NCBI RefSeq assembly: GCF_002954615.1
Contig: NZ_MSCJ01000001.1
Coordinates: 186,001 to 250,000 of the forward strand
Length of the DNA: 64,000 nt
Direction of reading: 5' to 3'
From: Photobacterium angustum
Lineage (GTDB): Bacteria; Pseudomonadota; Gammaproteobacteria; Enterobacterales; Vibrionaceae
Shown piece after piece: positions 11,527-13,349 of this stretch. The translations under genes were made by a program, and so were the position numbers. Every line of letters begins with the position of its first letter. The first letter of the stretch is position 1. The notes below the pieces were generated by a model. It searched no databases. It was not told the DNA's origin and saw only the letters and a list, made by a program, of their open reading frames with translations.

Positions 11527-12207
11527 TTAAATAAAGTATCGAGCTAAAATTTCTGCGGTAAAGTGTGTTTTTAAATAAAAACCACGAGGTAATGTTTTGA
11601 TAGGCTGTCCATTTGCGCCGTAGGCTTCTGTTAGTACTTTACTATTTGCCGCTTTTGGTCGTAATTGCAGCACTTCGCCATGGCGTGCTGTGATGTGCTC
11701 GACTTGGCCGAGTACGATCATATCCATTAACTCTTCCCAGTCTTGTTTTAATTGCGCATCTTCGTCAATCGACGGACTCCACATTAACGGCGATCCAACA
11801 TGGCGATCTGCTAAGGGAATATCTCGCTCACCTTCGACTGGGATCCATAATACCCGTGAGAGCTTATGACGAATATGGCTCGTTTCCCAACGTAATCCTT
11901 GTACCCCAATTAAAGGAGCGACACAGACAAAAGTTGTTTCTAGTGGTTTACCATTATAGCCAATAGGGATCGTTTTAAGCTCAATACCAAGATCGATAAA
12001 GTCAGGAACGGGTTTACTTCCCGCTGTTGCACCTAAATGCCATTCCAACAATTGCCCAACCCATCCTTTATCTCTTTTTAGATCAGCAGGTGGAACAATG
12101 CCAGCAAGATCGGCTAATTCTCCAAGCGTTAAACCTGCTAGCTGTTGGGCACGATTGAGGAGTTCTTGTTCAGTGAGGGGGGGCGAAGGTTGCTCTGGTT
12201 TTGGCAT
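11527..12207 (-). CDS. mutH: DNA mismatch repair endonuclease MutH
   Basis: MutH nicks the unmethylated strand at hemimethylated GATC sites when activated by MutS and MutL. The 226 residues match E. coli (229). The restriction-enzyme-like metal site is intact as D69, E76 and K78 ([13 protein letters not shown]). It is divergent from rppH, as in E. coli, with about 620 bp between them. The presence of mutH implies Dam methylation in this organism, which matters for reading the GATC cluster next door. Confidence 0.95.
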
Positions 12208-12830
12208 AGTGCTAGGTGATGATCATGATCTAAAAATAAGAAGAGTAAAGATCATAACATAGCTTTTTCCTGTTTGAGTGGGTAAATAGAGAGAAAAGGA
12301 TCATTTTAAAAGATATCCACAGAATATTTTTATGAAATATTTTTTTTGCTGTGAACTGGTTAAATAGACAGGCTTAAGTTGGTGTTTTATTCATCTTGGC
12401 TATCTTGTGTTCGATCATTTTTTTTGTATGGTGTGGATAAAACCAGAATTGATTGATCTTTGACCGATCGTTTTTTTGAGATGTGAATATTCTATTTATT
12501 TAAATTTATTATGTACTCTTAATGATTTTAAATTATTGATTATTAATGCTTTTGTGTTTTTATTTTTGATTTTTTATTGCTGTCTATCAAGCGATAATTA
12601 TATATAAAATCGAGGTTTTTTTATTTTCTGCACAAATCTATCCACAGAAAGAGTGAATAAATGTGGGGAATGTCTCATTTAGATGTTTATAACCTCTGGT
12701 TGGGAGAGGAGTTATCCCAAATTTGAGGTTTAGTTAGGAAAATATCACGATCTGATCGAATCTTTGTTTACCGATCACCTCTACTATGAAAAAATCACTA
12801 TTAATAGATATTTATACTTGAGGTCGTCCA
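12208..12830. other. DARS2-like intergenic region: DnaA-box, GATC and IHF-site cluster
   Basis: A 620-bp non-coding region between mutH and rppH. It holds one perfect DnaA box (TGTGGATAA, 12432-12440, reverse of TTATCCACA) and three one-mismatch boxes: ATATCCACA 12313-12321, TGTGAATAT 12482-12490 and CTATCCACA 12638-12646. Ten GATC sites fall at 12221, 12227, 12250, 12299, 12413, 12455, 12466, 12749, 12754 and 12773. There is a very AT-rich core (12483-12630) and a match to the IHF consensus at 12529-12541 (minus strand AATCAATAATTTA). In E. coli the DnaA-reactivating sequence DARS2 lies beside mutH, to my recollection in this same mutH/rppH intergenic region. Sites are seen; function is inferred. 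Confidence 0.6.
12689..12715 (+). promoter_or_regulatory. Hairpin upstream of rppH
   Basis: ATAAC-CTCT, loop GGTTGGG, AGAG-(GA)-GTTAT: nine pairs with a two-base bulge, no T-tract. It may lie in the rppH leader or belong to the DARS2-like region. Confidence 0.35.
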
Positions 12831-13349
12831 GTGATTGATGGCGATGGATACCGCCCTAATGTAGGGATCGTTATCTGCAATAGCCATGGCCAGGTATTTT
12901 GGGCTCGACGATATGGACAACATTCTTGGCAGTTTCCGCAAGGTGGTATTGATGATGGTGAAACACCTGAGCAAGCCATGTTTCGTGAATTGTACGAAGA
13001 AGTAGGATTAACCAAAAAAGATGTCAGGATAATTGCGTCAAGCCGTCATTGGCTACGTTATAAATTACCTAAACGTTTAGTGCGGTGGGATTCGAAACCT
13101 GTTTGTATCGGGCAGAAACAGAAATGGTTTTTGTTGAGCTTGGAGTGCGATGAGTCCAAGGTCAATATGCAGCGAGGTGCTACTCCTGAATTTGATGGAT
13201 GGCGATGGGTAAGTTATTGGTATCCAGTCCGACAGGTCGTTTCGTTTAAGCGTGATGTTTACCGTCGCGCACTTAAAGAATTTGCACCTGTAGCCATGCC
13301 TTTTAAAGAATGGAAAGAGCGAAAATTCAAGCGTAATAATAAAAAGTAA
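12831..13349 (+). CDS. rppH: RNA pyrophosphohydrolase RppH
   Basis: RppH removes pyrophosphate from 5'-triphosphorylated RNA and opens it to RNase E decay. The 172 residues carry a perfect Nudix box at 38-60 (GX5EX7REXXEEXG, around [12 protein letters not shown] and RELYEEVGL). Strongly conserved stretches follow: [23 protein letters not shown] and [16 protein letters not shown]. The start is GTG at 12831, giving the family N-terminus (M/V)IDGDGYRPN. ptsP follows 51 nt downstream, the conserved rppH-ptsP pair. Confidence 0.96.

Follow-up and report, generated by a model that had tools for sequence, protein, structure and literature searches.

The intergenic region between mutH and rppH in Photobacterium angustum raises the question of whether a two-chromosome bacterium carries a DnaA-recharging site laid out as DARS2 is in Escherichia coli and, if so, where else in its genome the same architecture is found. 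The DNA analysed here, referred to as the window, is a stretch of 64,000 nucleotides (contig NZ_MSCJ01000001.1, positions 186,001 to 250,000 of the forward strand), in which the locus is arranged as follows.

11527 to 12207, minus strand: mutH (226 aa; Pfam MutH, PF02976, E 5.7e-35)
12208 to 12830: mutH/rppH intergenic region, 623 bp, 29% G+C, the very probable site of the DARS2 homologue
12831 to 13349, plus strand: rppH (172 aa, NUDIX; PF00293, E 1.5e-26)

The protein identities at the locus (MutH, NUDIX/RppH and PtsP, by Pfam) and the order of the genes are those of E. coli K-12. We conclude, with a probability of roughly 0.9, that the mutH/rppH element is the DARS2 of a two-chromosome bacterium of the Photobacterium type. 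This homology, which a sequence-only reading of the same DNA had proposed as a DARS2 equivalent retained together with its gene order, is supported because gene identities, gene order, an exact core, the distance to rppH and the offsets of two distal boxes all match E. coli. A structured RNA of known type was dropped as a candidate, as an Rfam scan of the gap returned no family at E 0.1; a second copy of the gap was likewise rejected, the sole other BLAST match in the genome being 29 bp at C1:449061, inside A+T-rich coding sequence whose surroundings resemble, as judged by eye, a surface-polysaccharide cluster.

With TTWTNCACA as the DnaA box consensus and boxes counted at no more than one mismatch, the gap contains eight boxes, one perfect (12432 to 12440) and seven with a single mismatch (starting at 12313, 12482, 12626, 12638, 12652, 12684 and 12785), as compared to a mean of 2.0 in dinucleotide shuffles, only 2 of 1000 of which reach eight. 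The single perfect box is unremarkable alone, since 89 of 1000 shuffles equal it (mean 0.09); the window as a whole contains five perfect boxes versus 10.5 expected and shows no excess, and the DnaA-box signal is therefore local. The sequence-only reading had described one perfect and three single-mismatch boxes between 12313 and 12646; these boxes are present, but five rather than four lie within that span, which also ends just short of box I (12652 to 12660). The features that define the putative DARS2, with the box V numbering, like that of the E. coli IHF sites (IBS) and Fis sites (FBS), assigned here from published spacing and text, are the following.

12626 to 12660, minus strand: DARS core, TTATTCACT-CTTTC-TGTGGATAG-ATT-TGTGCAGAA
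12652 to 12660, minus strand: DnaA box I, one mismatch
12638 to 12646, plus strand: DnaA box II, one mismatch, opposed to box I with a 5-bp spacer
12626 to 12634, plus strand: DnaA box III, one mismatch, separated from box II by 3 bp
12432 to 12440, minus strand: perfect DnaA box, taken as the box V equivalent, +220 from box I (E. coli, +211)
12313 to 12321, plus strand: DnaA box with one mismatch, corresponding to the distal inverted box, +339 from box I (E. coli, +330)

The three core boxes show 9-5-9-3-9 spacing and the orientation of a DARS core, with box I opposed to boxes II and III; their mismatches total 3, a value of 3 or fewer being reached by 0 of 300 shuffles (lowest, 5). The E. 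coli K-12 DARS2 core, which lies in the same gap, reads TTATTCACC-TTTTC-TGTGGATAG-AGT-TGTGAAGAA, and, counted from the start of rppH, the core begins at base 171 in P. angustum and at base 158 in E. coli. According to the portions of PMC5742627 consulted, the DARS1 and DARS2 cores each consist of three boxes with equal spacing, box I being opposed to boxes II and III; the window element has exactly this arrangement and, as in E. coli, lies beside mutH. When the whole genome was searched with the core pattern, the window site was the only match with zero mismatches.

Candidate sites for the two accessory proteins IHF and Fis were located between the core and the distal inverted box.

12529 to 12541, minus strand: IHF-consensus site (AATCAATAATTTA), perfect match, 119 bp from the start of box I
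12585 to 12597: IHF-like site, one mismatch, offset 63
12446 to 12470: block conserved by alignment column, containing two GATC sites and, at 12451 to 12465, a Fis consensus with one mismatch; candidate FBS2-3
12398 to 12412: perfect Fis consensus (GNNYANNNNNTRNNC), in columns poorly conserved in the Vibrionaceae alignment

The consensus IHF site at 12529 to 12541 had been recognized in the sequence-only reading and is indeed a perfect match. Its offset of +119 differs from that of the E. coli site that we equate with IBS2 (+109) by 10 bp, or one helical turn, while its orientation is the same and its distance to box V is 101 bp, versus 102 bp in E. coli. The E. coli DARS2 has two IHF sites 3 bp apart, with the IBS1-2 region about 93 to 121 bp from the core start, whereas the window element has one perfect site and the tandem partner is absent from its place. 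Among 34 Vibrionaceae gaps, an IHF site with no more than one mismatch is found at +117 to +120 in 15, and 7 have no such site in the tested stretch, where shuffled sequence would contain one in 43% of cases; the IHF-like site at offset 63 recurs in none of the other gaps of this set. With regard to spacing, the sections seen of Kasho 2014 (PMC4245941) report that E. coli DARS2 retained partial activity when the IHF sites were moved 5 bp toward the Fis sites, moderate activity when they were moved 10 bp in that direction and partial activity when they were moved toward the core. The block at 12446 to 12470 resembles the E. coli stretch AAAGATCAACCAAT that precedes box V, the Fis block being the weaker one here; the exact two-GATC form occurs in just 8 of the 34 Vibrionaceae gaps, and its status as a fixed feature of the family is thus unsupported. 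The Fis sites of the window element are weak consensus matches and as such predicted.

Conservation of these features was explored in relatives identified with RppH, of which 80 of 587 were kept. The comparison set comprised 35 other Vibrionaceae loci by title (L004 to L038, with L017 labelled only Vibrionales); the 34 aligned Vibrionaceae gaps are those of the window and L004 to L037 without L017 (L038 being too short), and the 39 aligned Enterobacterales gaps include E. coli and leave aside a Rheinheimera locus (L078) and six loci without an adjacent mutH. Comparison of box positions across Vibrionaceae and with E. coli, which the sequence-only reading had named as a check on its proposal, showed that order, orientation and spacing of the core are kept in 34 of the 35 loci, with the DARS2-geometry core found at no more than three mismatches at base 168 to 172; the sole miss is L017, with 199 bp of upstream sequence and no core. 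At no more than four mismatches, the core geometry is present in all 39 Enterobacterales gaps, and in the Rheinheimera locus three boxes stand in a diverged arrangement at base 136. In the 34-gap alignment, few stretches are conserved as well as the core. Summed over the listed offsets, a perfect box V is found at +216 to +221 in 24/34 Vibrionaceae and at +209 to +211 in 39/39 Enterobacterales gaps, and a perfect distal inverted box at +334 to +339 in 28/34 and at +328 to +330 in 39/39, respectively; in P. angustum itself the distal box has its one mismatch. Of 150 family genomes searched for the core pattern at any position, 149 contain it with no more than two mismatches, and a reversed control pattern matched in none of the 150 at this threshold. 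Within its family, the window element is ordinary.

A gap between divergent genes is expected to hold the promoters of both mutH and rppH, and the boxes could thus serve transcription control, with DnaA repressing or timing mutH and/or rppH and any effect on replication being incidental. We consider this unlikely. Repression of a promoter has no need of head-to-head boxes at a 5-bp spacing, and a core of this geometry is also found in P. angustum between convergent genes (site A, below), where no promoter is expected. In addition, the core remains beside mutH where rppH is elsewhere: at six loci where rppH has no adjacent mutH (three from Providencia and one each from Proteus, Photorhabdus and Morganella), no core is found over 1300 bp upstream of rppH, and in the four of these genomes that were searched whole, all Morganellaceae (L267, L268, L275 and L278), a DARS2-type core lies about 0.5 kb from mutH and rppH is absent from that 3-kb locus; DARS2 therefore travels with mutH and is not a feature of the rppH promoter. 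Even less probable is that the region is a sink that titrates DnaA, or a site of ATP hydrolysis like datA, instead of a reactivating one. One perfect and seven near-perfect boxes together with an IHF site would bind DnaA, and boxes are combined with IHF in datA as well (PMC5742627), yet the arrangement is precisely that of DARS, and E. coli has its DARS2 in the same position.

The gap also contains an unusual number of GATC sites.

12221 to 12776: ten GATC sites, a number reached in 1 of 1000 shuffles

The sequence-only reading had counted these ten correctly, and the mean over 1000 dinucleotide shuffles is 2.7. Across the 34 Vibrionaceae gaps, GATC occurs at 9.0 per kb versus 2.9 expected, an approximately threefold enrichment, as compared to 3.9 per kb in the rppH-ptsP coding flank and to 1.0 to 2.5 per kb for seven other palindromes of the same composition in the same gaps. 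A GATC-rich SeqA/Dam region to which the DnaA boxes are secondary would account for this density but is the least probable of the readings, as the number per gap spans 3 to 10 (the gap of the window being highest) while the core is nearly invariant, and as Enterobacterales gaps have no excess (5.8 per kb versus 6.2 in the coding flank). The Dam/SeqA suggestion is a matter of composition, for which only density was measured, and the cluster may, speculatively, add Dam/SeqA timing to the element.

For the preferred reading as DARS2, E. coli biochemistry provides the likely course of events. ADP-DnaA would assemble on boxes I and II, head to head, with box III beside them; IHF bound at 12529 to 12541 would bend the DNA, and Fis at the block preceding box V would complete the complex. 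ADP would then be released, and the resulting apo-DnaA would rebind ATP, leaving chromosome 1 able to initiate again. Switch-off would follow the E. coli model outlined in the text seen of Miyoshi 2021 (PMC8682772), with ATP-DnaA gathering on box V and the neighbouring weak boxes and displacing Fis.

The same core pattern is found outside the window. Contig C3 of the P. angustum genome is chromosome 2, as it encodes RctB (PF11826, E 6e-195) beside phased TGATCA iterons (RctB iterons at C3:269037); the single DnaA hit is on contig C1. While the window site matches without mismatch, C3:1234038 has one, C3:764961 two and the site at uvrB three mismatches; the reversed control pattern gave one match at three mismatches in the same genome, and hits at that level alone therefore mean little. 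With a threshold of two mismatches, each of 50 genomes of the window's genus has 2 to 4 core matches, and of the other 100 genomes of the family, 91 have one, 8 have more and 1 has none (hand tally). The two sites on chromosome 2 are the following.

C3:1234038 to 1234072 (L137; L085, 1501 to 1535): site A, DARS-geometry core in a convergent gap
C3:764961 to 764995 (L138; L086): site B, DARS1-like core about 110 bp downstream of an nrdG-like gene

Site A, which in most genomes reads TTATCCACA-N5-TGTGNATAA-CTC-TGTGGGAAA, was found in 39 of 40 genomes of the genus among the matches listed, and site B, in most TTATCCACT-GTTTC-TGTGTATAA followed by a weaker third box (two mismatches in P. angustum), in 30 of 40 among the matches listed. 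For each site, 28 loci were fetched (23 non-redundant for A and 24 for B). Among these loci, which were picked by the pattern, box I is perfect in 28/28, box III has one mismatch in 28/28 and box II is perfect in 21/28 at site A, while at site B box II is perfect in 28/28 and box I has one mismatch. As choosing loci by the pattern constrains the boxes, identity was scored on the 13 positions not fixed by it; the pairwise mean was 0.83 at site A and 0.84 at site B, versus 0.29 to 0.33 in the flanks. Similarity at site A extends about 95 bp from box I, and downstream of the core a further 60 bp or so are conserved, whose consensus contains an IHF-like AGTCAATA, with an IHF site of no more than one mismatch at the consensus offset in 7/28 loci. 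In P. angustum, the neighbours of site A are an lplA-like gene (by Pfam) and a protease-like gene, and the flanking genes differ between the species whose genes were listed; at site B, an nrdG-like gene is found at 28/28 loci, its match ending 43 to 120 bp before the site in 27 and overlapping it in one. At the chromosome-2 origin itself (L185, 6997 to 7022), the sequence ATTCC-TGTGGATAA-CTC-TGTGAGTAA adjoins the RctB iterons; it has the same spacing as boxes II and III of a DARS core but lacks box I, and it has a stretch in common with E. coli DARS1.

Sites A and B are not the whole story of a single, special genus, an idea rejected as Vibrio-type genomes have a chromosome-2 site and a chromosome-1 pair of their own, in addition to DARS2 and to DARS1 upstream of uvrB.

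Site C (e.g., L243 to L251 and L287 to L290): core with DARS geometry, located on chromosome 2 wherever the replicon could be assigned
Site D (L255 to L260): palindromic pair of perfect boxes with a 5-bp spacer, on chromosome 1, near an napC-like gene in most

In most cases, site C has an oxidoreductase-like gene on one side and a large permease-like gene on the other (both named by eye); it is on the contig that carries ori2 in five genomes (G012, G020, G100, G150 and G151) and on a contig of 1.4 to 1.8 Mb in two (G025 and G035). Read on the reverse strand, it has 9-5-9-3-9 spacing with a third box of 1 to 2 mismatches in 16/16 loci entered, all picked by pattern; pairs at L253, L254 and L283 to L285, outside this 16-locus test, showed no convincing third box in the orientation shown, and at site D (L255 to L260) no third box was seen. 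Of 68 distinct places with facing pairs at 1 to 30 spacer positions in 16 related genomes, 48 have DARS spacing, as do 19 of 20 on chromosome-2 contigs (hand tallies); these places are not independent because the genomes are related. Separately, a facing pair with a 10-bp spacer recurs on the larger contig of several genomes (e.g., G025:C1:264004, G012:C1:273842, G150:C1:322311 and G151:C1:229676). As a single-chromosome control, seven Enterobacterales genomes all had DARS1 at uvrB and DARS2 at mutH, and in two of them, both Providencia, a single further pair was present, which in one of the two lay on a second contig.

In 18 of 20 genomes, namely those with iteron rows among the matches listed, the sites share a contig with the iterons. 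With contigs taken as full circles and for genomes of known contig span, replichore distance from ori2 was 0.63 to 0.86 for site A (8 genomes), 0.49 to 0.67 for site B (7 genomes) and 0.90 to 0.99 for site C (5 genomes), that is, near ter2. Pairs in two genomes of group g6 were at 0.82 to 0.84 and 0.27 to 0.30, and one pair in group g11 was at 0.13; a late position on chromosome 2 is therefore not universal. Nor is the presence of a chromosome-2 site in every two-chromosome genus supported: genomes of group g10 (Aliivibrio-like, name inferred) have two pairs each, on one contig in the six long assemblies; among the matches listed, one of these is DARS2 and the other, in G065, lies at uvrB. Eight group g9 genomes have no pair of the strict form. 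For this genome, we also rejected the idea that sites A, B and C represent crtS or part of oriC2, with crtS at C1:2156800 and the RctB iterons at C3:269037.

DARS-type cores thus exist on chromosome 2 and are conserved beyond their flanks, and they are likely to be bound by DnaA, judging from their sequence. They may also recharge DnaA and in this way report the completion of chromosome 2: on this reading, sites A, B and C would double only late in the replication of this chromosome and act when it is nearly finished. It is conceivable, at what we judge to be rather less than an even chance, that Vibrionaceae chromosome 2 has its own DARS-type sites (A and B in the genus of P. angustum, C in Vibrio-type genomes) that recharge DnaA near chromosome-2 completion and so couple it to the next initiation on chromosome 1. 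In the open-licence PubMed Central literature, we found no publication on DARS-type cores on chromosome 2.

Among known systems, E. coli DARS2 (PMC4245941 and PMC8682772, in the text seen of each) shares with the window element its gene position, core, box V and distal box offsets and IHF orientation; the two differ in that E. coli DARS2 has two GATC and the window element ten, and in that the window element is A+T-richer. Boxes IV to VI, in the E. coli overinitiation tests described in the part seen of Kasho 2014 (PMC4245941), were dispensable. E. coli DARS1, in the bioD-uvrB gap (L118), has a 9-5-9-3-9 core too, at a different locus, and is independent of IHF and Fis according to the excerpted text of PMC8682772; its counterpart here (C1:659939 to 659973; L087) lies about 1 kb upstream of uvrB, with two perfect facing boxes and a weak third. 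Vibrio cholerae is among the species with DARS2-homologous sequences in the legend of Figure 8 of Miyoshi 2021 (PMC8682772), and a 2018 review (PMC6090056) mentions, in the passages seen, V. cholerae DARS-like sequences at uvrB and mutH; this homologue is of the same family and, by the published text, at the same position, the likeness being one of description rather than sequence. The window element is less new because the V. cholerae homologue has already been published, and it adds one species to a known kind of element, with DnaA recharging at DARS2 probably laid out much as in E. coli in a bacterium with two chromosomes.

A further known system is crtS, a non-coding site in Vibrionaceae that acts on the replication initiator RctB (Kemter 2018, PMC5854411, from the text seen) and that has been likened to DARS2 (PMC6139311, in the extract seen); the published crtS consensus matches C1:2156800 with one mismatch, far from the window. 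As reported in the parts of PMC5854411 that were read, P. profundum has among the longest delays from crtS to ori2, and a P. profundum ori2 mini-chromosome was unresponsive to three crtS sites in E. coli. In the portions seen of the papers cited here, coordination of the two chromosomes is described one way, from chromosome 1 to chromosome 2 via crtS. The chromosome-2 sites, if they act as proposed, would constitute a return signal opposite in direction to crtS, and the conserved 35-bp cores make this opposite direction, from chromosome 2 to chromosome 1, testable.
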